64,000 bases of DNA, taken from Siphonodentalium dalli. Taxonomy: Eukaryota > Mollusca > Scaphopoda > Gadilida > Siphonodentaliidae. Positions 14,033 to 55,485 of this stretch are shown here, piece after piece; the first letter of the stretch is position 1, and each line of letters opens with the position of its first letter. The translations under genes were made by a program, and so were the position numbers. The notes beneath the pieces were generated by a model, which made no database searches, had not been told where the DNA came from, and saw only the letters and a list, made by a program, of their open reading frames with translations. The stretch covers positions 247,785,827 to 247,849,826 of the forward strand of contig CP136064.1 of the NCBI GenBank assembly GCA_032622095.1, written 5' to 3'.

Positions 14033-14604
14033 CTTAATACAAATCTACGATTCTCGACCGATCGGGACGAAACTTGGTGCGTGTATGTAGTTTGACCAGG
14101 CGGTGGTCGTTGTCGTATTGGCGAGCCCGTGCGACGCCCGTGCAGCGCATGCGCAGACGAGATCTCGGAAACGGTGGAGCTATCGACTTGAAATTTGGTA
14201 TGTGAATGTATCTTGCCCCGAGTACGAATTGTATCGGGTCGCCGAGCCCGTGCGACGCCAGCTTCGCGCATGCGCAGACGAGATCTCGGAAACGGGTGGA
14301 GCTATCGACTTGAAATTTGCTATGTGAATGTATCTTGCCCCGGATACGAATTTTATCGGGTCGCCGAGCCCGTGCGACGCCAGCTTCGCGCATGCGCAGA
14401 CAAAATCTCGGAAACGGGTGGAGCTATCGACTTGAAATTTGCTATGTGAATGTATCTTGCCCCGGATACGAATTTTATCTGGTCGCCGAGCCCGTGCGAC
14501 GCCAGCTTCGCGCATGCGCAGACCAGATATCGGAAACGGGTGGAACTATCGACTTGGAAATTTGGTTTTTGAATAGCCCGGACAACGTCGGGCTCATCGG
14601 CTAG
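13973..14604 (+). mobile_element. Helitron copy 1 (distinct subfamily)
   Basis: 632 bp. It shares ends with the others (TCTCATATATATTTTG at the 5' end; a CCCGGACAACGTCGGG hairpin, then CTAG), but its middle is different. After a (TCTG)n tract come about four 122-bp tandem units (about 14100-14570) containing GCGCATGCGCAGAC and GATCTCGGAAACGG. Confidence 0.75.
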
Positions 14605-15225
14605 TCTATTATATATTTTGGAAGATCTGTGTGTCTGTGTGTCTGTCTGTGTGTCTGTCTGTGTGTTCGCGATGAACTCGAAAACGGCCCATCCGATTTC
14701 GATGAAACTTGGTATGTGGGGGTATTTTCGGCCGGGGACGAACATAGGCATATTAATTTGTCCGTGCGACGTGACATTGACCTTGAAATCGGGTCATTTC
14801 AAGGTCAAACGCCCGAATATCACGGGATTTCGATGAAACTTGGTATGTGGGGGTACTTTCTTATGGCGAGTCTCATAAGTATATTCATTTGCCCGTGCGA
14901 GTGACATTGACCTTGAAATCGGGTAACTTCAAGGTCAAATCGCCAATTTTGATGGGATTTCGACGAAATTTGATACGTGGGGTTAGTTTTGTCCACTGAT
15001 TGTTTTGGACGGGTCCAATCGTGACCCCGACCAGACCTTGACCTTCAAAATGATCAATTCAAGGTCATATCGGGTAAAACCGGATGGATTTCGACGGGCA
15101 CGTTTGTCGGGTACTTTTGTCCGGGCAGTGTTTTTGGACTGGTCAAATCGTGACCCCACTTGACCTTCACCTTCAAAATGGACAATTCAAGGTCAAAGCC
15201 CGGACGAAGTCGGGTCACCTTCTAG
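14605..15225 (+). mobile_element. Helitron copy 2
   Basis: 621 bp. Starts TCTATTATATATTTTGG, carries a TGTCTGTG tract, then repeated CGATGAAACTTGGTATGTGG units with TGACCTTGACCTT and TTCAAGGTCAA motifs. Ends with the CCCGGACGAAGTCGGG hairpin, then TCACCTTCTAG. Confidence 0.8.
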
Positions 15226-15847
15226 TCTATTATATATTTTGGAAGATCTGTGTGTCTGTGTGTCTGTCTGTGTGTCTGTCTGTGTGTTCGCGATGAACTC
15301 GAAAACGGCCCACCCGATTTCGATGAAACTTGGTATGTGGGGGTTTTTTCGGCCGGGGACGAACATAGGCATATTAATTTGTCCGTGCGACGTCACCTTG
15401 ACCTTGAAATCGGGTAATTTCAAGGTCAAACGCCCGAATATCACGGGATTTCGATGAAACTTGGTATGTGGGGGTACTTTCTTATGGCGAGTCCCATAAG
15501 CATATTCATTTTCCCGTGCGACGTGACCTTGACCTTGAAATCGGGTAACTTCAAGGTCAAATCGCCAATTTTGATGGGATTTCAACGAAATTTGATACGT
15601 GGGGTTAGTTTTGTCCACTGATTGTTTTGGACGGGTCCAATCGTGACCCCAACCAGACATTGACCTTCAAAATGATCAATTCAAGGTCAAATCGGGTAAA
15701 ACCGGATGTATTTCGACGGGCACGTTTGTCGGGTACTTTTGTCCGGGCAGTGTTTTTGGACAGGTCAAATCGTGACCCCACTTGACCTTGACCTTCAAAA
15801 TGGACAATTCAAGGTCAAAGCCCGGACGAAGTCGGGTCACCTTCTAG
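15226..15847 (+). mobile_element. Helitron copy 3
   Basis: 622 bp, very similar to copy 2 throughout. It contains four TCAAGGTCA sites on the + strand and four TGACCTTGA sites. Confidence 0.8.
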
Positions 15848-16443
15848 TCTATTATATATTTTGGAAGATCTGTGTGTGTGTGTGTGTGTGTTCGCGATGA
15901 ACTCGAAAACGGCCGAGCCGATTTCGATGAAACTTGGTATGTGGTGGTATTTTCGGCCGGGGGTGGCATGGGCCTATTAATTTGTCCGTGCGACGTGACC
16001 TTGACCTTGAAATCGGGTCATTTCAAGGTCAAACGCCCGAATATCACGGGATTTCGATGAAACTTGGTATGTGGGGGTACTTTCATATGGGGAGTCTCAT
16101 AAGCATATGCATTTGCCCGTGCGACGTGACCTTGACCTTGCAATTGGGTCAATTCAAGGTCAAATCGCCAATTTTGATCGGATTTCGACGAAATTTTATA
16201 CATAGGGTTACTTTTGTCTACTGAGTATTTTGGACGGGTCGAACCGTGACCCCCATCTGACCTTGACCTTCAAAATGATCAATTCGAGGTCAAATCGGGT
16301 AAAACCGGATGGATTTCGACGGGAACGTTTGTCGGGTACTTTTGTCCGGGCAGTGTTTTGAACTGGTCAAATCGTGACCCCACTTGACCTTCAAAATGGA
16401 CAATTCAAGGTCAAAGCCCGGACGAAGTCGGGTCACCTTCTAG
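15848..16443 (+). mobile_element. Helitron copy 4
   Basis: 596 bp. Same structure, with a pure (TG)n tract in place of the mixed TCTG/TGTG tract and small internal deletions. Confidence 0.8.
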
Positions 16444-17127
16444 TCTATTATATATTTTGGGAAATCTGTCTGTGTGTGTGTGTGTTCGCGATGGACTCGA
16501 AAACGGCCGAGCCGATTTCGATGAAACTTGGTATGTGGGGGTACTTTCGGCCGGGGACTGGCATGGGCCTATTAATTTGCCCGTGCGACGTGACCTTGAC
16601 CTTGAAATCGGGTCATTTCAAGGTCGAACGCCCGAGTATCACGGGATTTCGATGAAAATTAGTGTCTAGGGATACTTTCGTATGGGGAGTGTCGTAAGCC
16701 TGTCCGTTTGCCCGTGCGACGTAACCTTGATCTTGAAATCGGGTCAATTCAAGGTCAAATCGCGAATTTTGATGGGATTTAGACGAAATTTTATACGTGG
16801 GGTTACTTTTGTCCACTGAGTGTTTTGGACGGGTCGAGTCGTTACCCCGACCTGACCTCAAAATGGACAATTCAAGGTCAAATCGCGCAATTCGCAGAAA
16901 AGCAGAGGGGAAACAGCCCGGACCAATTCAAGGTCAAATCGGGTAAAACCGGATGCATTTCGACGGGTACTTTTGTCGGGTACTTTTGTCATGGCAGTGT
17001 TTTGGATGGGTCAAATCGTGACACCACCTGACCTTGACTTTCAAAATGGACAATTCAAGGTCAAATCGCGCAATTCGCCGAAAAGCAGAGGGGAAACAGC
17101 CCGGACGAAGTCGGGTCCACCTGCTAG
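16444..17127 (+). mobile_element. Helitron copy 5
   Basis: 684 bp, the most diverged of the four alike. Near its 3' end a segment with AGCAGAGGGGAAACAGCCCGG is duplicated (about 16890-16923 and 17075-17104), so the terminal hairpin region is partly doubled. Confidence 0.75.
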
Positions 17128-28849: not shown

Positions 28850-29206
28850 TTTTTTTATTGGCTGAGAATTGAAACTCAACAAGAGTAAAATTGGATGAGA
28901 GTTCTTTTTTTTTGTGTAGGTTAGGTGAATGTGCAGTGCTGTAGTATGGTATTGTGCATTAAAATATGAAACTTTTATAGGAAGCATGCAGATTTCTAAC
29001 TTTTTCAAATGACAGTTTTGCCAAGAATGTATACACAGACATTTCAGTAGCTCTTTTTGAGAAATTATATTAACCTGGTACACACATAAACTTACTTTTA
29101 AATTGGTAAACAAAGAGGTTTTTTTTACGAGTGTTTCATGAAATTTCAGAAAAATTGCATTTTAATATTTAAAATAATTTAATCATGGTTAGATTAGTCA
29201 GGGTAG
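28850..29206. other. Unrelated AT-rich insert, no recognisable feature
   Basis: A 96-codon - strand frame (28823-29113) begins inside the broken H and shows no recognisable domain. Confidence 0.4.
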
Positions 29207-29872
29207 TGTATACTAAGATGAATAAAGTCTATCTATATTAAACGTACTTCTCATTCAAAGTTACTATGCTTCAAATATGTTGAAACTCTGATGGTAAAAG
29301 AATTAAGTTCTGCCTTGATTTCAAAAATCTGTTAACCCTTCACCCAACAGAAGGGCCCTGTGCCAATGCATTCTCTTATATATGCGAGTCGACCATAGGT
29401 CGCCTCGCATATATAAGAGAATGCATTGGCTTAACACATTAAAAATTATAAAATTGTTAAAGAATGTAAGAAAAAATTGTAAAAAGTGTTAGGCCAATGC
29501 ATTCTCTTATATATGCGAGGCGACCTATGGTGTATACTAAGATGAATAAAGTCTATCTATATTAAACGTACTTCTCATTCAAAGTTACTATGCTTCAAAT
29601 ATGTTGAAACTCTGATGGTAAAAGAATTAAGTTCTGCCTTGATTTCAAAAATCTGTTAACCCTTCACCCAACAGAAGGGCCCTGTGCCAATGCATTCTCT
29701 TATATATGCGAGTCGACCATAGGTCGCCTCGCATATATAAGAGAATGCATTGGCTTAACACATTAAAAATTATAAAATTGTTAAAGAATGTAAGAAAAAA
29801 TGGTAAAAAGTGTTAAAAAAAAGATTTTTTTTAGGCCGATGCATTCTCTTATATATGCGAGGCGACCTATGG
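29207..29872. repeat. Tandem duplication with breakpoint at an H centre
   Basis: Unit 1 is 29207-29530 and unit 2 is 29531-29872. Both start TGTATACTAAGATG and end inside the H palindrome at GGCGACCTATGG. Unit 2 has about 18 extra bases (poly-A/T spacer). Each contains the left end of a family 1 TTAA MITE (TTAA at 29332-29335 and 29656-29659). Apart from that spacer the units are nearly identical, so the event looks recent. Confidence 0.9.
29362..29430. repeat. H palindrome in duplicated unit 1
   Basis: Intact 69-bp palindrome. The second H of this truncated MITE (29493-29530) is only a half. Confidence 0.95.
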
Positions 29873-32184: not shown

Positions 32185-32230
32185 GAGTAGTTATTCGATA
32201 TATAGGAAATGTTTAGATAGTAAGTTCAAC
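32185..32230 (-). repeat. Solo fragment related to the 34-47 kb satellite
   Basis: GAGTAGTTATTC, then TAGGAAATGTTTAGATAGTA and AGTTCAAC, is the reverse complement of most of a satellite monomer, with several substitutions. It lies 2 bp after the right TTAA of copy D and 2.1 kb from the array. Confidence 0.6.
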
Positions 32231-33183: not shown

Positions 33184-34307
33184 CATATATATAGAGTACT
33201 TATATGCTTTATGTTTTAACTTATCTTGTATTTTTTTGTTAACTGCCTACATTGGTGTATAACAAAAAACGATCTTATCTTATCCTATGACCATTTATAA
33301 CGGTTATTCAAGTTCCCCAATCAATGATTCGTTCATAAAGTTAACAAGTGTGATGTTATCTTCGTGACACACAAAGTGTTCGAACATTCAGTGTACTAAT
33401 TTACTAATTTAAACCGCATAAAAAATACTGTTCATGTTCTCTGGATTAAAATAGGACTGTATATATAAAAGATATGTCGCCAATGTACAGCACCCAGTGG
33501 TCCTCAAGTTTATTGAGTGATAGAATATATCTCTCTCAGCCATAGATAAAATGGGTATTATCATTTTCTCAATGCTTTTCTCCGGTGTTTCTCTTTATTC
33601 TTGGGTATGGGAATGGAGATAAGTTCGCCTGGCGTGTGATGTGATTGCTGTTTGATACGCTTATATAGCACATAAAACGGAGAGATCAAAAATAAACTTT
33701 GCCGTTTCTTCGATAAAACATTCTTCGTTTTAGATATTTGAGAACTGAATGCAGTTTGAGTGTGTAAGGTTATAACGCTGTGGAGAAGTGGTTCACACTA
33801 AATGTGCTTCAGTTGCCACAACGACATACCCCTAAATTAAACACACTCAAAATATGTTAATAGCTGGGTCCTTATTAACTTCAAACTCGGCTATATTTTG
33901 TTTTCTTAAATCTGTCTGCAGTTTGTGTATTATACCATGCTGCATGGTAAGTTAGCCACAATATTCTACGTGTGAATCACCAATGGTGCCGCGCACTCAA
34001 ATCACGCCCAGTATTCTATCTACAGCAGATACATGCAGGTAAACAAGATGTGATGTTTGTTATGGTATGTTTTATTGGGATATGAAATGCATGACCCAAT
34101 TGGCAGTTAACCAGGCATGATTTAATGTAACACACACACGCACGGGCTATGTAAATATTTTGAAATTACAAGACGACTCCCATGTGTCAACATGTTATAG
34201 CTTCATATTTACAGTGATAAATAATATATAACATAACATGCGTAATATAATTATAGGGTAGAATGTATGTGTATCTTTAACGATTACACCGCTGCTATCG
34301 GAGATCT
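33184..34307. other. No recognisable feature
   Basis: AT-rich, with no gene or repeat supported. Confidence 0.4.
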
Positions 34308-34565
34308 TTAACCCTTCCTATACTAAATGGATTCTCCCATGCACTCACATATAAAAGTATACATTGGAATGGTCTATTATTGATTTGGAGGTGTGTTAAT
34401 GTGGTAAAAACAGACGGCAGATAAATAAAAGTGCAGAAAAGCCCTATTTCTTGAGGGAAATGTTTAGATAATAAGTTCAACTATGGTCGTTTGTTGAACT
34501 TATTATCTGAACATTTCCTATGGGATAACTACTCATCAATGATTCTTTAGTATAGAAAGGGTTAA
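34308..34565. mobile_element. TTAA MITE family 4: source of the satellite
   Basis: TTAA at 34308-34311 and 34562-34565 flank a 250-bp body with inverted ends CCCTTCCTATACTAAA and TTTAGTATAGAAAGGG. Near its right side an inverted repeat (GGAAATGTTTAGATAATAAG against CTTATTATCTGAACATTTCC) forms a hairpin at about 34456-34518. Its last 70 or so bases are the first monomer of the satellite that follows. Confidence 0.8.
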
Positions 34566-37500
34566 ACTTATTATCTGAACATTTCCTATGGGATAACTAC
34601 TCATCAATGATTCTTTTGTATAGAAAGGGTTAAACTTATTATCTGAACATTCCATATGGGATAACTACTCGTCAGTGATGTTTTAGTATAGAAAGGGTTA
34701 AACTTATTATCTGAACATTCCACATGGGATAACTACCCATCAGTGATGCTTTAGTATAGAAAGGGTTAAACTATTATCTGAACATTTCCTATAGGATAAC
34801 AACTCATCAGTGATGCATTAGTATAGAAAGGGTTAAACTTATTATCAGAACATTTCCTATGGGATAATACTGATCAATGATGCTTTAGTATAGAAAGGAT
34901 TAAACGTATTATCTGAACATTTCATATGGGATAACTACTCACCAGTGATGCTTTAGTATAGAAAGGGTTAAACTTATTATCAGAACATTTCATATTGGAT
35001 AATACTGATCAATGATGCTTTAGTATAGAAAGGGTTACATGTTTTATCAGTACATTTCCTATGGGATAACTACTCATCAATGATGCTTTAGTATAGAAAG
35101 GATTAAACGTATTATCTGAACATTTCATATGGGATAACTACTCATCAGTGATGCATTAGTATAGAATGGGTTAAACTTATTATTAGTACATTTCCTATGG
35201 GATATACTGATCAATGATGCTTTAGTATAGAAAGGGTTAAACGAATTATCTGAACATTCCATATTGGGTAACTACTCATCAGTGATGTTTTTGTATAGAA
35301 AGGGTTAATCTTATAATCAGAACATTTCTTATGCGATAACTACTCATCAATGATGCTTTAGTATAGAAAGGGTTAAACTTATTATCTGAACATTTCCTAT
35401 GGGATATCTGCTCATCAATGATGCTTTAGTATAGAAAGGGTTAAACTTATTATCTGAACATTTACTATGGGATAACTACTCATCAGTGATGCTTTATAGA
35501 AAGGGTTAGACTTATTATCTGAACATTTCCCATTGGATAACTACTCATCAGTGATGCTTTATAGAAATGGTTAAACTTATTATCTGAACATTTCCTATGG
35601 GATAACTACTCATCAGTGATGCTTTATAGAAAGGGTTAAATTTATTATCAGAACATTTCCTATGGGATAACTACTCATCAATGATTCTTTAGTATATAAA
35701 GGGTTAAACTTATTATCTGAACATTCCATATGGGATAACTACTCGTCAGTGATGCTTTAGTATAGAAAGGGTTAAACTTATTATCTGAACATTCCATATG
35801 GGATAACTACTCGTCAGTGATGTTTTAGTATAGAAAGGGTTAAACTTATTATCTGAACATTCCATATGGGATAACTACTCACCAGTGATGCTTTAGTATA
35901 GAAAGGGTTAAACTTATTATCTGAACATTTCCTATAGGATAACTACTCATCAGTGATGCTTTAGTATAGAAAGGGTTAAACTTATTATCAGAACATTTCC
36001 TATGGGATAATACTGATCAATGATGCTTTAGTATAGAAAGGATTAAACGTATTATCTGAACATTTCATATGGGATAACTACTCATCAGTGATGCTCTAGT
36101 ATAGAAAGGGTTAAACTTATTATCAGAACATTTCATATTGGATAATACTGATCAATGATGCTTTAGTATAGAAAGGGTTACACGTATTATCAGTACATTT
36201 CCTATGGGATAACTACTCATCAATGATGCTTTAGTATAGAAAGGGTTAAACGTATTATCTGAACATTTCATATCGGATAACTACTCATCAATGATGCTTT
36301 AGTATAGAATGGGTTAAACTTATTAGAATATTTCATATTGGATAATACTGATCAATGATGCTTTAGTATAGAAAGGGTTACACGTATTATCAGTACATTT
36401 CCTATGGGATAACTACTCATCAATGATGCTTTAGTATAGAAAGGGTTAAACGTATTATCTGAACATTTCATATCGGATAACTACTCATCAATGATGCTTT
36501 AGTATAGAAAGGGTTAAACGAATTATCTGAACATTCCATATGGGGTAACTACTCACCAGTGATGATTTAGTATAGAAAGGGTTAAACTATTATCAGAACA
36601 TTTCCTATGGGATAACTACTCATCAGTGATGTTTTAGTATAGAAAGGCTTAATCTTATAATCAGAACATTTCCTATGGGATAACTACTCATCGGTGATGG
36701 TTTAATATAGAAAGGGTTAAACTTATCAGAACATTTCATATTGGATAATACTGATCAATGATGCTTTAGTATAGAAAGGGTTACACGTATTATCAGAACA
36801 TTTCCTATGGGATAATACTGATCAATGATGATTTAGTATAGAAAGGGATAAACGTATTATCTGAACATTTCATATGGGATAACTACTCATCGGTGATGCT
36901 TTAGTATAGAAAGGGTTATTTAAACTTATTAGAACATTTCATATTGGATAATACTCATCAATGATGCTTTAGTATGGAAAGGATTAAACGAATTATCTGA
37001 ACATTCCATACGGGGTAACTACTCACCAGTGATGATTTAGTATAGAAAGGGTTAAACTATTATCAGAACATTTCCTATGGGATAACTACTCATCAGTGAT
37101 GCTTTAGTATGGAAAGGATTAAACGAATTATCTGAACATTCCATACGGGGTAACTACTCACCAGTGATGATTTAGTATAGAAAGGGTTAAACTATTATCA
37201 GAACATTTCCTATGGGATAACTACTCATCAGTGATGCTTTAGTATGGAAAGGATTAAACGAATTATCTGAACATTCCATACGGGGTAACTACTCACCAGT
37301 GATGATTTAGTATAGAAAGGGTTAAACTATTATCAGAACATTTCCTATGGGATAACTACTCATCAGTGATGCTTTAGTATGGAAAGGATTAAACGAATTA
37401 TCTGAACATTCCATACGGGGTAACTACTCACCAGTGATGATTTAGTATAGAAAGGGTTAAACTATTATCAGAACATTTCCTATGGGATAACTACTCATCA

Positions 37501-40500
37501 GTGATGCTTTAGTATAGAAAGGGTTATTTAAACTTATTAGAACATTTCATATTGGATAATACTCATCAATGATGCTTTAGTATGGAAAGGATTAAACGAA
37601 TTATCTGAACATTCCATACGGGGTAACTACTCACCAGTGATGATTTAGTATAGAAAGGGTTAAACTATTATCAGAACATTTCCTATGGGATAACTACTCA
37701 TCAGTGATGTTTTAGTATAGAAAGGGTTAATCTTATAATCAGAACATTTCCTATGGGATAACTACTCATCGGTGATGGTTTAACATAGAAAGGGTTAAAC
37801 TTATTATCAGTACATTTCCTATGGGACAACTACTCATCAATGATGCTTTAGTATAGAACGGGTTTAACTTATTATCTGAACATTTCCTATGGGATAACTA
37901 CTCATCGGTGATGCTTTATAGAAATGGTTAAACTTATTATCTGAACATTTCCTATGGGATAACTACTCATCAGTGATGCTTTATAGAAAGGGTTAAATTT
38001 ATTATCAGAACATTTCCTATGGGATAACTACTCATCAGTGATGTTTTAGTATAGAAAGGGTTAATCTTATAATCAGAACATTTCCTATGGGATAACTACT
38101 CATCGGTGATGGTTTAATATAGAAAGGGTTAAACTTATTATCAGAACATTTCATATTGGATAATACTGATCAATGATGCTTTAGTATAGAAAGGGTTACA
38201 TGTTTTATCAGTACATTTCCTATGGGATAACTACTCATCAATGATGCTTTAGTATAGAAAGGATTAAACGTATTATCTGAACATTTCATATGGGATAACT
38301 ACTCATCAGTGATGCATTAGTATAGAATGGGTTAAACTTATTATTAGTACATTTCCTATGGGATAATACTGATCAATGGTGCTTTAGTATAGAAAGGGTT
38401 AAACGAATTATCTGATCATTCCATATTGGGTAACTACTCATCAGTGATGTTTTTGTATAGAAAGGGTTAATCTTATAATCAGAACATTTCTTATGCGATA
38501 ACTACTCATCAATGATGCTTTAGTATAGAAAGGGTTAAACTTATTATCTGAACATTTCCTATGGGATATCTGCTCATCAATGATGCTTTAGTATAGAAAG
38601 GGTTAAACTTATTATCTGAACATTTCCTATGGGATAACTGCTCATCAATGATGCTTTAGTATAGAAAGGGTTAAACTTATTATCTGAACATTTCATATGG
38701 GATAACTACTCATCAGTGATGCTTTATAGAAAGGGTTAGACTTATTATCTGAACATTTCCCATGGGATAAATACTCATCAGTGATGCTTTATAGAAATGG
38801 TTAAACTTATTATCTGAACATTTCCTATGGGATAACTACTCATCAGTGATGCTTTATAGAAAGGGTTAAATTTATTATCAGAACATTTCCTATGGGATAA
38901 CTACTCATCAATGATTCTTTAGTATATAAAGGGTTAAACTTATTATCTGAACATTCCATATGGGATAACTACTCGTCAGTGATGCTTTAGTATAGAAAGG
39001 GTTAAACTTATTATCTGAACATTCCATATGGGATAACTACTCGTCAGTGATGTTTTAGTATAGAAAGGGTTAAACTTATTATCTGAACATTCCATATGGG
39101 ATAACTACTCACCAGTGATGCTTTAGTATAGAAAGGGTTAAACTTATTATCTGAACATTTCCTATAGGATAACTACTCATCAGTGATGCTTTAGTATAGA
39201 AAGAGTTAAACTTATTATCAGAACATTTCCTATGGGATAATACTGATCAATGATGCTTTAGTATAGAAAGGATTAAACGTATTATCTGAACATTTCATAT
39301 GGGATAACTACTCATCAGTGATGCTCTAGTATAGAAAGGGTTAAACTTATTATCAGAACATTTCATATTGGATAATACTGATCAATGATGCTTTAGTATA
39401 CAAAGGGTTACACGTATTATCAGTACATTTCCTATGGGATAACTACTCATCAATGATGCTTTAGTATAGAAAGGGTTAAACGTATTATCTGAACATTTCA
39501 TATCGGATAACTACTCATCAATGATGCTTTAGTATAGAATGGGTTAAACTTATTAGAATATTTCATATTGGATAATACTGATCAATGATGCTTTAGTATA
39601 GAAAGGGTTACACGTATTATCAGTACATTTCCTATGGGATAACTACTCATCAATGATGCTTTAGTATAGAAAGGGTTAAACGTATTATCTGAACATTTCA
39701 TATCGGATAACTACTCATCAATGATGCTTTAGTATAGAAAGGGTTAAACGAATTATCTGAACATTCCATATGGGGTAACTACTCACCAGTGATGATTTAG
39801 TATAGAAAGGGTTAAACTATTATCAGAACATTTCCTATGGGATAACTACTCATCAGTGATGTTTTAGTATAGAAAGGCTTAATCTTATAATCAGAACATT
39901 TCCTATGGGATAACTACTCATCGGTAATGGTTTAATATAGAAAGGGTTAAACTTATCAGAACATTTCATATTGGATAATACTGATCAATGATGCTTTAGT
40001 ATAGAAAGGGTTACACGTATTATCAGAACATTTCCTATGGGATAATACTGATCAATGATGATTTAGTATAGAAAGGGTTACATGTTTTATCAGTACATTT
40101 CCTATGGGATAACTACTCATCAATGATGCTTTAGTATAGAAAGGATTAAACGTATTATCTGAACATTTCATATGGGATAACTACTCATCAGTGATGCATT
40201 AGTATAGAATGGGTTAAACTTATTATTAGTACATTTCCTATGGGATAATACTGATCAATGGTGCTTTAGTATAGAAAGGGTTAAACGAATTATCTGATCA
40301 TTCCATATTGGGTAACTACTCATCAGTGATGTTTTTGTATAGAAAGGGTTAATCTTATAATCAGAACATTTCTTATGCGATAACTACTCATCAGTGATGG
40401 TTTAATATAGAAATGGTTAAACTTATTATCATTACATTTCCTATGGGATAACTACTCATCAATGATGCTTTAGTATAGAAAGGGTTAAACTTATTATCTG

Positions 40501-43500
40501 AACATTTCCTATGGGATATCTGCTCATCAATGATGCTTTAGTATAGAAAGGGTTAAACTTATTATCTGAACATTTCCTATGGGATAACTGCTCATCAATG
40601 ATGCTTTAGTATAGAAAGGGTTAAACTTATTATCTGAACATTTCATATGGGATAACTACTCATCAGTGATGCTTTATAGAAAGGGTTAGACTTATTATCT
40701 GAACATTTCCCATGGGATAACTACTCATCAGTGATGCTTTATAGAAATGGTTAAACTTATTATCTGAACATTTCCTATGGGATAACTACTCATCAGTGAT
40801 GCTTTATAGAAAGGGTTAAATTTATTATCAGAACATTTCCTATGGGATAACTACTCATCAATGATTCTTTAGTATATAAAGGGTTAAACTTATTATCTGA
40901 ACATTCCATATGGGATAACTACTCGTCAGTGATGCTTTAGTATAGAAAGGGTTAAACTTATTATCTGAACATTCCATATGGGATAACTACTCGTCAGTGA
41001 TGTTTTAGTATAGAAAGGGTTAAACTTATTATCTGAACATTCCATATGGGATAACTACTCACCAGTGATGCTTTAGTATAGAAAGGGTTAAACTTATTAT
41101 CTGAACATTTCCTATAGGATAACTACTCATCAGTGATGCTTTAGTATAGAAAGAGTTAAACTTATTATCAGAACATTTCCTATGGGATAATACTGATCAA
41201 TGATGCTTTAGTATAGAAAGGATTAAACGTATTATCTGAACATTTCATATGGGATAACTACTCATCAGTGATGCTCTAGTATAGAAAGGGTTAAACTTAT
41301 TATCAGAACATTTCATATTGGATAATACTGATCAATGATGCTTTAGTATACAAAGGGTTACACGTATTATCAGTACATTTCCTATGGGATAACTACTCAT
41401 CAATGATGCTTTAGTATAGAAAGGGTTAAACGTATTATCTGAACATTTCATATCGGATAACTACTCATCAATGATGCTTTAGTATAGAATGGGTTAAACT
41501 TATTAGAATATTTCATATTGGATAATACTGATCAATGATGCTTTAGTATAGAAAGGGTTACACGTATTATCAGTACATTTCCTATGGGATAACTACTCAT
41601 CAATGATGCTTTAGTATAGAAAGGGTTAAACGTATTATCTGAACATTTCATATCGGATAACTACTCATCAATGATGCTTTAGTATAGAAAGGGTTAAACG
41701 AATTATCTGAACATTCCATATGGGGTAACTACTCACCAGTGATGATTTAGTATAGAAAGGGTTAAACTATTATCAGAACATTTCCTATGGGATAACTACT
41801 CATCAGTGATGTTTTAGTATAGAAAGGCTTAATCTTATAATCAGAACATTTCCTATGGGATAACTACTCATCGGTAATGGTTTAATATAGAAAGGGTTAA
41901 ACTTATCAGAACATTTCATATTGGATAATACTGATCAATGATGCTTTAGTATAGAAAGGGTTACACGTATTATCAGAACATTTCCTATGGGATAATACTG
42001 ATCAATGATGATTTAGTATAGAAAGGGTTACATGTTTTATCAGTACATTTCCTATGGGATAACTACTCATCAATGATGCTTTAGTATAGAAAGGATTAAA
42101 CGTATTATCTGAACATTTCATATGGGATAACTACTCATCAGTGATGCATTAGTATAGAATGGGTTAAACTTATTATTAGTACATTTCCTATGGGATAATA
42201 CTGATCAATGGTGCTTTAGTATAGAAAGGGTTAAACGAATTATCTGATCATTCCATATTGGGTAACTACTCATCAGTGATGTTTTTGTATAGAAAGGGTT
42301 AATCTTATAATCAGAACATTTCTTATGCGATAACTACTCATCAGTGATGGTTTAATATAGAAATGGTTAAACTTATTATCATTACATTTCCTATGGGATA
42401 ACTACTCATCAATGATGCTTTAGTATAGAAAGGGTTAAACTTATTATCTGAACATTTCCTATGGGATATCTGCTCATCAATGATGCTTTAGTATAGAAAG
42501 GGTTAAACTTATTATCTGAACATTTCCTATGGGATAACTGCTCATCAATGATGCTTTAGTATAGAAAGGGTTAAACTTATTATCTGAACATTTCATATGG
42601 GATAACTACTCATCAGTGATGCTTTATAGAAAGGGTTAGACTTATTATCTGAACATTTCCCATGGGATAACTACTCATCAGTGATGCTTTATAGAAATGG
42701 TTAAACTTATTATCTGAACATTTCCTATGGGATAACTACTCATCAGTGATGCTTTATAGAAAGGGTTAAATTTATTATCAGAACATTTCCTATGGGATAA
42801 CTACTCATCAATGATTCTTTAGTATATAAAGGGTTAAACTTATTATCTGAACATTCCATATGGGATAACTACTCGTCAGTGATGCTTTAGTATAGAAAGG
42901 GTTAAACTTATTATCTGAACATTCCATATGGGATAACTACTCGTCAGTGATGTTTTAGTATAGAAAGGGTTAAACTTATTATCTGAACATTCCATATGGG
43001 ATAACTACTCACCAGTGATGCTTTAGTATAGAAAGGGTTAAACTTATTATCTGAACATTTCCTATAGGATAACTACTCATCAGTGATGCTTTAGTATAGA
43101 AAGAGTTAAACTTATTATCAGAACATTTCCTATGGGATAATACTGATCAATGATGCTTTAGTATAGAAAGGATTAAACGTATTATCTGAACATTTCATAT
43201 GGGATAACTACTCATCAGTGATGCTCTAGTATAGAAAGGGTTAAACTTATTATCAGAACATTTCATATTGGATAATACTGATCAATGATGCTTTAGTATA
43301 CAAAGGGTTACACGTATTATCAGTACATTTCCTATGGGATAACTACTCATCAATGATGCTTTAGTATAGAAAGGGTTAAACGTATTATCTGAACATTTCA
43401 TATCGGATAACTACTCATCAATGATGCTTTAGTATAGAATGGGTTAAACTTATTAGAATATTTCATATTGGATAATACTGATCAATGATGCTTTAGTATA

Positions 43501-46500
43501 GAAAGGGTTACACGTATTATCAGTACATTTCCTATGGGATAACTACTCATCAATGATGCTTTAGTATAGAAAGGGTTAAACGTATTATCTGAACATTTCA
43601 TATCGGATAACTACTCATCAATGATGCTTTAGTATAGAAAGGGTTAAACGAATTATCTGAACATTCCATATGGGGTAACTACTCACCAGTGATGATTTAG
43701 TATAGAAAGGGTTAAACTATTATCAGAACATTTCCTATGGGATAACTACTCATCAGTGATGTTTTAGTATAGAAAGGCTTAATCTTATAATCAGAACATT
43801 TCCTATGGGATAACTACTCATCGGTAATGGTTTAATATAGAAAGGGTTAAACTTATCAGAACATTTCATATTGGATAATACTGATCAATGATGCTTTAGT
43901 ATAGAAAGGGTTACACGTATTATCAGAACATTTCCTATGGGATAATACTGATCAATGATGATTTAGTATAGAAAGGGATAAACGTATTATCTGAACATTT
44001 CATATGGGATAACTACTCATCGGTGATGCTTTAGTATAGAAAGGGTTATTTAAACTTATTAGAACATTTCATATTGGATAATACTCATCAATGATGCTTT
44101 AGTATGGAAAGGATTAAACGAATTATCTGAACATTCCATACGGGGTAACTACTCACCAGTGATGATTTAGTATAGAAAGGGTTAAACTATTATCAGAACA
44201 TTTCCTATGGGATAACTACTCATCAGTGATGCTTTAGTATGGAAAGGATTAAACGAATTATCTGAACATTCCATACGGGGTAACTACTCACCAGTGATGA
44301 TTTAGTATAGAAAGGGTTAAACTATTATCAGAACATTTCCTATGGGATAACTACTCATCAGTGATGCTTTAGTATGGAAAGGATTAAACGAATTATCTGA
44401 ACATTCCATACGGGGTAACTACTCACCAGTGATGATTTAGTATAGAAAGGGTTAAACTATTATCAGAACATTTCCTATGGGATAACTACTCATCAGTGAT
44501 GCTTTAGTATGGAAAGGATTAAACGAATTATCTGAACATTCCATACGGGGTAACTACTCACCAGTGATGATTTAGTATAGAAAGGGTTAAACTATTATCA
44601 GAACATTTCCTATGGGATAACTACTCATCAGTGATGCTTTAGTATAGAAAGGGTTATTTAAACTTATTAGAACATTTCATATTGGATAATACTCATCAAT
44701 GATGCTTTAGTATGGAAAGGATTAAACGAATTATCTGAACATTCCATACGGGGTAACTACTCACCAGTGATGATTTAGTATAGAAAGGGTTAAACTATTA
44801 TCAGAACATTTCCTATGGGATAACTACTCATCAGTGATGTTTTAGTATAGAAAGGGTTAATCTTATAATCAGAACATTTCCTATGGGATAACTACTCATC
44901 GGTGATGGTTTAATATAGAAAGGGTTAAACTTATTATCAGTACATTTCCTATGGGACAACTACTCATCAATGATGCTTTAGTATAGAACGGGTTTAACTT
45001 ATTATCTGAACATTTCCTATGGGATAACTACTCATCGGTGATGCTTTATAGAAATGGTTAAACTTATTATCTGAACATTTCCTATGGGATAACTACTCAT
45101 CAGTGATGCTTTATAGAAAGGGTTAAATTTATTATCAGAACATTTCCTATGGGATAACTACTCATCAGTGATGTTTTAGTATAGAAAGGGTTAATCTTAT
45201 AATCAGAACATTTCCTATGGGATAACTACTCATCGGTGATGGTTTAATATAGAAAGGGTTAAACTTATTATCAGAACATTTCATATTGGATAATACTGAT
45301 CAATGATGCTTTAGTATAGAAAGGGTTACATGTTTTATCAGTACATTTCCTATGGGATAACTACTCATCAATGATGCTTTCGTATAGAAAGGATTAAACG
45401 TATTATCTGAACATTTCATATGGGATAACTACTCACCAGTGATGCATTAGTATAGAATGGGTTAAACTTATTATTAGTACATTTCCTATGGGATAATACT
45501 GATCAATGGTGCTTTAGTATAGAAAGGGTTAAACGAATTATCTGATCATTCCATATTGGGTAACTACTCATCAGTGATGTTTTTGTATAGAAAGGGTTAA
45601 TCTTATAATCAGAACATTTCATATGGGATAACTACTCATCAATGATGCTCTAGTATAGAAAGGGTTAAACTTATTATCAGAACATTTCATATTGGATAAT
45701 ACTGATCAATGATGCTTTAGTATACAAAGGGTTACACGTATTATCAGTACATTTCCTATGGGATAACTACTCATCAATGATGCTTTAGTATAGAAAGGGT
45801 TAAACGTATTATCTGAACATTTCATATCGGATAACTACTCATCAATGATGCTTTAGTATAGAATGGGTTAAACTTATTAGAATATTTCATATTGGATAAT
45901 ACTGATCAATGATGCTTTAGTATAGAAAGGGTTACACGTATTATCAGTACATTTCCTATGGGATAACTACTCATCAATGATGCTTTAGTATAGAAAGGGT
46001 TAAACGTATTATCTGAACATTTCATATCGGATAACTACTCATCAATGATGCTTTAGTATAGAAAGGGTTAAACGAATTATCTGAACATTCCATATGGGGT
46101 AACTACTCACCAGTGATGATTTAGTATAGAAAGGGTTAAACTATTATCAGAACATTTCCTATGGGATAACTACTCATCAGTGATTTTTAGTATAGAAAGG
46201 CTTAATCTTATAATCAGAACATTTCCTATGGGATAATACTCATCGGTGATGGTTTAATATAGAAAGGGTTAAACTTATCAGAACATTTCATATTGGATAA
46301 TACTGATCAATGATGCTTTAGTATAGAAAGGGTTACACGTATTATCAGAACATTTCCTATGGGATAATACTGATCAATGATGATTTAGTATAGAAAGGGA
46401 TAAACGTATTATCTGAACATTTCATATGGGATAACTACTCATCAGTTATGCTTTAGTATAGAAAGGGTTATTTAAACTTATTAGAACATTTCATATTGGA

Positions 46501-47279
46501 TAATACTCATCAATGATGCTTTAGTATGGAAAGGGTTAAACGAATTATCTGAACATTCCATACGGGGTAACTACTCACCAGTGATGATTTAGTATAGAAA
46601 GGGTTAAACTATTATCAGAACATTTCCTATGGGATAACTACTCATCAGTGATGTTTTATTATAGAAAGGGTTAATCTTATAATCAGAACATTTCCTATGG
46701 GATAACTACTCATCGGTGATGGTTTAATATAGAAAGGGTTAAACTTATTATCAGTACATTTCCTATGGGACAACTACTCATCAATGATGCTTTAGTATAG
46801 AAAGGGTTAAACTTATTATCTGAACATTTCCTATGGGATAACTACTCATCGGTGATGCTTTATAGAAATGGTTAAACTTATTATCTGAACATTTCCTATG
46901 GGATAACTACTCATCAGTGATGCTTTATAGAAAGGGTTAAATTTATTATCTGAACATTTCCTATGGGATAACTACTCATCAGTGATATTTAGTATATAAA
47001 GGGTTAAACTTATTATTTGAACATTTCCTATGGGATAACTACTCATCAGTGATGCTTTATAGAAAGGGTTAAACTTATTATCTGAACATTTCCTGTGGGA
47101 TAACTACTCATCGGTGATGCTTTGGTATAGAAAGGGTTAAACTTATTATCTGAACATTTCCTATGGGATAACTACTCATCAGTGATGCTTTATAGAAAGG
47201 GTTAAACTTATTATCTGAACATTTCCTATGGGATAACTACTCATCAACGATACTTTACTATAGAATGGAAAGGGTTTAA
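34490..47279. repeat. 68-bp satellite array derived from a TTAA MITE end
   Basis: About 12.8 kb of tandem monomers, roughly 190 by length. The consensus runs GTTAAACTTATTATCTGAAC, ATTTCCTATGGGATAACTAC, TCATCAGTGATGCTTTAGTA, TAGAAAGG. Each monomer contains the MITE right terminal repeat joined to TTAA. Variants of 61-70 bp recur in fixed order, giving higher-order units. The array ends at GAAAGGGTTTAAT (47268-47280), again on a terminal-repeat/TTAA junction. No coding frame persists. Confidence 0.95.
38199..43970. repeat. Higher-order repeat of ~1950 bp, three copies
   Basis: Marker monomers recur at 1950-bp spacing: ATGATTCTTTAGTATATAAA at 38911, 40861 and 42811; GTTACATGTTTTATCAG near 40079 and 42029. 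In the lines compared the copies are essentially identical. The first copy is one monomer shorter (1882 bp). From about 42811 the sequence then follows the order seen from 35681, an offset of 7130 bp. Confidence 0.8.
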
Positions 47280-47832
47280 TTCATTTAGACGCGTTCAGAT
47301 GGCGTCTAACATTATAAGGCGGATATATATCATATCATATCACACATTTCTTGCATAGCGCACATGTCCCCGAGGTTTCAATGCGCTTGACAAACATATT
47401 ACAATCAAATAACAAATTTATAGTTCAAGCATGTGATAATTCTGTACCACGCACTACAAGCTGGTTCATTAGTTTATCGCCCAAATGTTCAGAATAATTC
47501 CGTGAATACAATATAATCTTCGATCCAAAGATAAACCGAGGGGTTATTACCTTTTGGCACGTTGCGGGGATCAACAGATGATCGCATTAAATACTTCATA
47601 ACGGGCTTTCTCGTATACATATACACATAGGAAAGACGTTTTGAAAAGGTAGACATTGTCGGGTTAGAAAGAATAAAAGGTATTTTTCATCAACACGAAT
47701 AATATTCTATGTTAGTATCTTCCTTTCGCGGTAACAATAAAGAGCGTTTTCCTCACATATATGCGGACCGTCGATCGCTGTTAATCAATTTCAAAAGACT
47801 CTTCGGTGAGTTGTTATAGTGAATATACATTC
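47280..47832. other. No recognisable feature
   Basis: Contains one ACAATAAAGAGCGTTTT motif at 47734-47750; otherwise nothing. Confidence 0.4.
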
Positions 47833-47835
47833 AGT

Positions 47836-48339
47836 ATGTTATATAGACCTACGTATTCAAGAATTTATTTCAGTATATGTTATATAGACCTACGTATTCA
47901 AGTATTTATTTCAGTATGTTATATAGACCTACGTATTCAAGTATTTATTTCAGTATGTTATATAGACCTACGTATTCAAGTATTTATTTCAGTATGTTAT
48001 ATAGACCTACGTATTCAAGTATTTATTTCAGGTTGTTATATAGACCTACATATTCAAGTATTTATTTCAGTATGTTATATAGACCTACGTATTCAAGTAT
48101 TTATTTCAGTATGTTATATAGACCTACATATTCAAGTATTTATTTCAGGTTGTTATATAGACCTACATATTCAAGTATTTATTTCAGTATGTTATATAGA
48201 CCTACGTATTCAAGTATTTATTTCAGTATGTTATATAGACCTACGTATTCAGTATTTATTTCAGTATGTTATATAGACCTACGTATTCAAGTATTTATTG
48301 CAGTATGTTATATAGACCTACGTATTCAAGTATTTATCG
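47836..48339. repeat. 39-bp minisatellite, ~13 units
   Basis: Unit: TATGTTATATAGACCTACGT, ATTCAAG, TATTTATTTCAG. 39 bp is a multiple of three and two frames lack stops, so two overlapping frames stay open (13-residue period, YIDLRIQVFISVC or MLYRPTYSSIYFS). The residue pattern shows no sign of selection and no splice or promoter context was seen, so these are taken as chance frames. Confidence 0.9.
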
Positions 48340-55283: not shown

Positions 55284-55485
55284 GAATATAGTTAGATAAT
55301 AATAAAGTTTGTTGAACTTATTGTATACATTTATAACCCATGAATAGTAATCCTTATGCATGTGCATTATATGTTCATCAGTTTGTCGCCTGATTATATT
55401 ACACCTTCAGACGAACAATAGACCATTCCTATGTATGACTTTACAACTGAATGGTAGAAACCACTCAGTAAATAAGAGGTTAAGG
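55284..55485 (-). repeat. Diverged relative of the family 4 TTAA MITE
   Basis: TTAGATAATAATAAAG, GTTTGTTGAACTTATT and ATAGACCATTCCTATGTAT correspond, in reverse order and orientation, to parts of the element at 34312-34561. Terminal repeats are degraded. Confidence 0.4.

Follow-up and report, generated by a model that had tools for sequence, protein, structure and literature searches.

A probable piggyBac-type MITE whose right end forms a tandem array of variable number, from single units to long satellites, in the scaphopod Siphonodentalium dalli

Satellites that derive from transposon ends, or from repeats internal to miniature inverted-repeat transposable elements (MITEs), are already known from the Tetris/TIR-220, Xmix/Xstir, miDNA4 and coral CMITE systems, and reviews, in the sections drawn on here, count the ends of transposons among the origins of satellite monomers (PMC12628747, PMC9659126). 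Here, we describe a locus of this kind in the mollusc Siphonodentalium dalli. The window, by which we mean the whole 64,000-nucleotide stretch analyzed (positions 247,785,827 to 247,849,826 of CP136064.1, here contig C4 of a 2.23-Gb genome in nine contigs, assembly GCA_032622095.1), contains a TTAA-flanked MITE that runs directly into a long array of a 68-bp monomer. Two things set this system apart: the repeated unit comprises the outermost end of the element together with its target site, on a single side, and one genome offers a long series of such arrays for reading.

As described in the portions of PMC4079207 drawn on here, the foldback element Tetris of Drosophila virilis is a non-autonomous DNA transposon whose terminal repeats vary in number (three versus four TIR repeats in two alleles, ascribed to unequal crossing over) and form kilobase-size arrays of the TIR-220 satellite, some of them without the element. 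As with Tetris/TIR-220, the monomer studied here shares homology with a transposon terminus and occurs both at low copy number in the element and in long arrays. TIR-220, however, lies inside the terminal inverted repeat (TIR) under an outer flanking domain, whereas here the outermost end and the target site are repeated on one side of a MITE of ~250 bp. Xmix/Xstir of Xenopus is likewise a TTAA MITE that occurs as a MITE, as a tandem array and as a composite of the two (PMC6004289, PMC12628747, PMC9659126, each in part), but it is T2/Kolobok type with AGGRR ends (PMC6004289, in the same portion), whereas the present element has CCCT ends and a unit that includes the terminus and TTAA. The segment amplified in Xmix is internal according to the text of PMC6004289 and the TIR according to a table in PMC9659126. 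In miDNA4 of Xenopus tropicalis, as covered in parts of PMC12628747 and PMC9659126, a unit is present singly or as an array of variable number within a MITE, and longer arrays are proposed to turn into satellites once the ends decay; miDNA4 is of the Tc1/mariner type with the repeat within the element, whereas here the repeat is the element end. The CMITE arrays of Acropora corals consist of piggyBac-type MITEs, with TTAA and with CC[C/T]T ends, arranged in tandem; according to the relevant part of PMC2872659, whole MITEs and intervening sequence are repeated there, in contrast to the right end alone in the present case. The MITE/satellite element of S. dalli itself was not found described in the open-access text searched.

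Within the window, the leftmost unit of the array is, as originally predicted, the right end of a complete TTAA-flanked MITE of 250 bp, both TIR arms of which were found (21 nt, 95% complementary, with the TTAA partly inside). The element has an internal hairpin near its right end (26 nt, 96%), and the DNA fold of the whole MITE has a z of -6.2. Its last 68 bp, from the hairpin interior through TTAA, are iterated head to tail, such that the monomer start falls within the hairpin. Tandem Repeats Finder reports 34493-47265 with a period of 68, 190 copies, 87% matches and a score of 18,233, and our own segmentation also yields 190 units, with a mean identity of 91.6% to the window consensus and 86.9% in pairwise comparison. 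Every monomer was expected to carry the right end joined to TTAA; over the 190 units, the TIR-like terminal match closes on TTAA in 155/190, and on GGGTTAA in 118/190. The array does end at a TTAA as expected, but the junction is not clean, as the terminal repeat there contains a short insertion as well as an additional T (CTATAGAATGGAAAGGG-T-TTAA). A recurring difference is also seen at the start of the unit, which reads GTTGAACTT in the window MITE and in the MITE consensus versus GTTAAACTT at typical array junctions. In its essentials, the original description of the locus holds up. The window is without a match in Rfam.

The MITE family was sampled at 39 further places on nine contigs (best 40 of 3,281 candidates scored), all of which were read; L001-L008 were dropped before counting as the same places as L009-L015 and the window, and with duplicates L013, L028 and L041 also dropped, the alignment comprises the window copy and 36 others, 37 in total. 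The 39 places show 83-87% identity to the window copy. The elements are short and of fairly uniform size (233-270 bp among scored copies), non-coding and of high copy number, and the 37-copy consensus is 256 bp long; divergence from it is 7.6% as a mean over copies and 6.0% for the window copy. The left TTAACCC is present in 26 of the 39 and the right GGGTTAA in 16, with both unmutated in 11. At both termini of the 37-copy consensus we found CCCTTTCTATACTAAA, which matches the piggyBac-type CC[C/T]T motif. According to the portions of the sources available, a TTAA target site and a CC[C/T]T terminal motif are the hallmarks of piggyBac-type MITEs (PMC2872659), and an AGGRR motif adjoining TTAA is that of Kolobok/T2-type MITEs such as Xmix (PMC6004289). 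The CCCT and TTAA ends therefore fit the former and not the latter, and membership of the Kolobok/T2 type was rejected, as the terminus is CCC and not AGGRR. It is probable that the element is a non-autonomous, piggyBac-type MITE whose right end is a tandem array of variable number. The genome also holds 128 matches above the cut-off to PF13843 (piggyBac transposase), from 116 scored of 649 candidates, with many open frames of >500 amino acids. These matches include groups of equal-length open frames with near-equal scores, suggesting recent activity.

A genome search for element and monomer, as the original prediction had proposed, recovered both solo MITEs and MITE-headed arrays. The exact 28-nt MITE left end has 1,648 matches and the exact 33-nt unit-unit junction 4,910, and as the reversed control gave 0 in both cases, these counts are far above chance. 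Exact right ends run on into the start of another unit in 2,518/3,537 instances. Given the junction count and an exact junction in ~18% of units (41/229, in 17 fetched loci), a rough estimate is ~27,000 units, or 1.9 Mb and 0.08% of the genome. Classical satellite DNA forms long, homogeneous arrays that mostly lie in heterochromatin; the present arrays are dispersed and reach ~20.8 kb or more: on contig C5, an array of the same 68-bp monomer extends from 255,081,700, before which it begins, to ~255,102,570, a length of ~20.8 kb or more if it is continuous, as its interior was seen as pattern matches only (its ends lie in L091 and L090). This array, longer than that in the window, has a spacing near 2.1 kb and variants of its own, and its edge holds a MITE body whose left TIR has decayed. 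With many arrays genome-wide, including this longer one, the proposal that the satellite was born in one locus is not supported in that form; the window belongs, as one of the long cases, to a series that extends across the genome, and is not demonstrably the birthplace.

The relationship between array and MITE was assessed from 24 independent arrays on C1 0-17.03 Mb, each with at least one exact junction, whose left edges were read. Duplicated loci were counted once, and further arrays without an exact junction exist in the same stretch; match groups at C1 15.378 and 15.380 Mb stand outside the 24, as does L053c, which has a full body and did not come from the junction list. MITE sequence, ranging from a full body to a short hairpin remnant, lies next to 14/24 arrays, upstream in every case. 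Conversely, extra units are found in 6/39 MITE copies (L019, L020, L022, L023, L036 and L046), on the right side in every case; the full-length copies read have mostly one unit, some have a few, and the window copy has 190. As extra units occur on the right only and the MITE upstream only, the most fitting view of the element is that of a MITE whose right end varies in unit number, with bodiless arrays as its remains. In addition, the right end of the 30-copy single-unit MITE consensus is identical to the all-loci monomer consensus, and together with the recurrence of MITE-headed arrays this bears out the predicted origin of the satellite from the right end of a piggyBac-type MITE. MITE right ends lacking similarity to the monomer, which would speak against this origin, were not seen in the copies read, a weak test because the copies were found with a query that included the right end. 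Right edges were reached for 17/24 arrays, and six of these end on the terminal repeat and TTAA (L052, L061, L073, L070, L079 and L083), most with small changes and L070 with shorter variant units thereafter; the other 11 are cut or degraded. For six or more such edges among the 17 reached, P is ~6e-5 with three of 68 phases counted as clean and ~1e-3 with five, in a comparison picked post hoc. After position 667 in L070, the array goes on as a variant unit of ~45 bp, without the hairpin part, and L053:14-1130 (C1 15.38 Mb) is a distinct, related 66-bp variant satellite, 98.9% alike internally and on average ~81% alike to other arrays.

Insight into how arrays lengthen and shrink comes from similar copies, between which copy number differs by whole units. 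L061 (C1 5.94 Mb) and L063 (6.40 Mb) are copies of one locus with 8 and 13 units, respectively. Seven of the eight L061 units best match L063 units 0, 2, 3, 4, 8, 9 and 12 (counted from zero) with the order kept, and unit 1 of L061 has kept its position in L063, yet its sequence is nearer to that of other units. The five additional units of L063 fall into two interior groups of three and two. Similarly, L019 (C1 24.55 Mb) has six units and L043 (28.27 Mb) one, with flanks 95-98% identical. The single unit of L043 combines the front of unit 1 with the characteristic end of the final L019 unit; because the units between these two in L019 are consensus-like, the simplest interpretation is that L043 has contracted. 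Changes of whole interior units, along with the exact blocks in the window, are the pattern expected of unequal exchange or slippage, and array growth looks like the ordinary outcome of one or the other between units.

Taken together, it is likely that the right end of the MITE became an array of variable number, which grows by unequal exchange or slippage, and that the MITE is then lost by decay, deletion or insertion. The architecture would be that of a left TIR, body and hairpin followed by n units of 68 bp, each spanning one hairpin arm, the terminal repeat of the right end and TTAA. The first extra unit probably arose through slippage or template switching between the element end (GGGTTAA) and a similar GTTGAA at the hairpin. 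From two units on, unequal exchange or replication slippage would add and remove whole interior units and, in the window, blocks of ~2 kb; the whole-unit change is seen directly at the duplicated loci, and its mechanism is what we infer from them. Decay, deletion or later insertions may then remove the MITE from an array.

Several observations weigh against this reading, and they are taken here and in the next three paragraphs with the alternatives on which they bear. No autonomous partner with a matching TIR was identified, the ends of PF13843-bearing elements not having been read, and no empty site was found for the window insertion, where no match spans the join and the flank on the outer right consists of a dispersed repeat. 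Furthermore, the ends of exact matches in the window, although mostly mid-monomer, only bound the true breakpoints, and one lies right at a TTAA (43977). The last of these could be accommodated if transposase built the arrays, either by repeated insertion of the element into the TTAA of existing copies, named in the original prediction as a possible aid to expansion, or by the joining of cut ends at TTAA. Such a role would also agree with a terminal repeat plus TTAA at every junction, the abundance of piggyBac transposases in the genome, the inverted MITE into which L022 continues straight after its last unit, and small insertions exactly at the TTAA junction in the last units of L061 and L063 (TTAAACTTTAAACTT as well as a longer version), which may record TTAA breakage. 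However, repeated whole-element insertion would leave internal left ends, and the arrays that were read through their interior, that of the window included, yielded no MITE body apart from the 18-27-nt terminal repeat itself, which argues against growth by this route. The mid-monomer position of most exact-match ends in the window points the same way, although these ends only bound the breakpoints. Gains at the duplicated loci are likewise of whole interior units, though TTAA end joining could give the same result. Construction by transposase is therefore considered distinctly improbable. The double-insertion model of McGurk and Barbash (2018), in which tandem transposon pairs reportedly act as satellite seeds, differs in that it involves whole-element insertions at one site, and no nested bodies were found in the arrays read here.

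A second consideration is whether arrays were born in place or carried. Units are about equally alike between and within arrays (for the window, 0.898 within and 0.912 to L058), which also weighs against the favored reading, as it could mean that arrays were carried by transposition. One ancestral multi-unit element would then have seeded most arrays, most of which would not have been born where they lie, and the six right edges on the terminal repeat and TTAA are as they would be in an inserted multi-unit element. In one array-level data set, the longer L058 and L059 stood in for L023 and L036, and L048, L050, L051 and L060 were left out. We compared unit 1 with its own array against 2,000 random draws at 12 loci; the 66-bp variant L053a was left out of this and of the unit-order test. 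At 4/12 loci (L061/L063, L062, L069 and L052), none of the 2,000 draws reached the resemblance of unit 1 to its own array, and a local origin is better supported there. The result is not significant for the window (0.40) and seven further loci, among which L058 comes near (0.058), another point against the favored reading. In the window, unit 1 shows no greater similarity to its own array than to others (40% of draws do as well), and the adjoining MITE copy, presented in the original prediction as the source element, is therefore not demonstrable as such, although the test is hardly informative there because this unit is close to the family consensus. Sharing of unit order between loci, expected of carried arrays, is weak (27/231 pairs at P<=0.05) in a test of low power (positive control P = 0.05 at k=4 and 0.006 at k=5), and T10A and A41G, two variants of the window array, are rare elsewhere in the fetched sample, with 6 and 3 occurrences among the 266 units of other arrays. 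On balance, seeding of most arrays by a carried element is possible but somewhat unlikely. A description of T10A and A41G as private to the window was dropped, as an exact 26-mer with A41G has 156 genome matches, of which 6 are in the window. On C1-C5, 26/44 clusters of arrays bearing A41G lie in the outer 15% of contigs versus 13.2 expected.

Also at odds with the favored reading, 10/24 arrays have no adjoining MITE sequence in the flank read, which for 6 of the 10 was only 148-484 bp. The original prediction had regarded arrays unlinked to the MITE as evidence against it, and this is therefore partly what was found. Two of the bodiless arrays, L053b and L057a, lie 1,230 and 648 bp downstream of a same-direction array with a body, and an insertion may have split a single array in each case, leaving L053b and L057a as the distal halves. 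If descent were instead reversed, such that a MITE captured a pre-existing satellite or MITEs inserted beside arrays, arrays without a MITE would be accounted for, as would the stretch at C1 1.72-18.45 Mb, in which arrays are dense and exact MITE left ends number 0 versus 12.4 expected. Against this, the TIR within the monomer has the same orientation and position as in single-unit MITEs, the first part of the monomer corresponds to one of the two MITE hairpin arms, and remnants of the MITE are found on the upstream side of arrays only, making reversed descent very improbable.

The length of the window array must also be considered, since a 3,256-bp exact self-match at an offset of 1,950 weighs against a wholly biological expansion as a possible assembly error, and a related array, L077, runs into N. 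Block duplication in the assembly could thus have contributed part of the length. However, matches at the offset of 7,130 are broken up by differences, and the different, longer array on C5 is also periodic, near 2.1 kb, with variants of its own. We therefore regard an artefact of this kind as unlikely.

The start of bodiless arrays could additionally point to how some of them were released. Two of the ten (L054 and L080) begin exactly with TTAA followed directly by ACTTAT, and L049 nearly so; at random phase, at least two TTAA starts among ten have P ~0.009, in a comparison picked post hoc. ACTT right after TTAA is also observed in two array-bearing elements (L019 and L083), although the cases are few. 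Precise excision by piggyBac is established, as stated in the part of PMC2872659 drawn on here. As every monomer presents a full terminal repeat and TTAA, the transposase would be able to take any monomer as an element end, and it is suggestive, and only that, that some bodiless arrays were left by precise excision of the MITE body through the first internal right end. More specifically, it could be speculated, with considerable doubt, that when the transposase takes an internal right end, the MITE is excised seamlessly, a free satellite starting at TTAA stays behind, and the excised element reinserts with one unit. In the proposed sequence of events, this would concern a minority of orphan arrays.

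The features of the window are collected in Table 1. Beyond these, two decayed pieces of the same MITE family are found on the minus strand at 32185-32230 and 55401-55483. A 39-bp tandem repeat (47830-48337; 13 copies, 95% matches) lies ~550 bp past the satellite, and a 324-bp tandem duplication at 29206-29815 is probably recent because of its 99% matches. At 14122-16823, 122- and 131-bp repeats are interleaved with TCTG microsatellites, with G+C above the surroundings.

Table 1. Coordinates of the MITE, its array and repeated blocks in the window
Feature	Position	Strand	Details
Left target-site TTAA	34308..34311	+	Context CTTTAACCC
Complete 250-bp MITE	34312..34561	+	CCCTTCCTATACTAAA ... TTTAGTATAGAAAGGG; 6.0% substitutions versus consensus of 37 copies
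Left TIR	34312..34327	+	Arms 34307-34327 / 34546-34566
26-nt MITE hairpin	34456..34518	+	Arms 34456-34481 and 34493-34518; right arm overlaps first monomer bases
Unit 1 (MITE right end plus TTAA)	34498..34565	+	Segmentation, alignment to consensus
Tandem array, units 2-190	34566..47279	+	Mostly 64-68 bp each; direction of MITE right end
Exact 1,950-bp block, ~2.7 repeats	38772..43977	+	3,256-bp exact match at offset 1,950
Exact runs of 439, 524, 1,087 and 466 bp	35535..38250	+	Found again within 42665-45380, at an offset of 7,130 bp downstream
Last unit, degenerate terminal repeat	47206..47279	+	Closes on T-TTAA (TTAA = 47276-47279)

In conclusion, array size within this one genome ranges from a single unit to 190, and judging by its length the C5 array may hold ~300; at the duplicated loci, gains and losses can be followed unit by unit. 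Three questions become accessible to direct tests: how the step from one unit to two is made, what makes arrays grow, and whether arrays are released from their parent element when transposase cuts at internal ends. If the last of these is true, it would form an active, precise route, rather than slow decay, for a transposon to shed satellite arrays.

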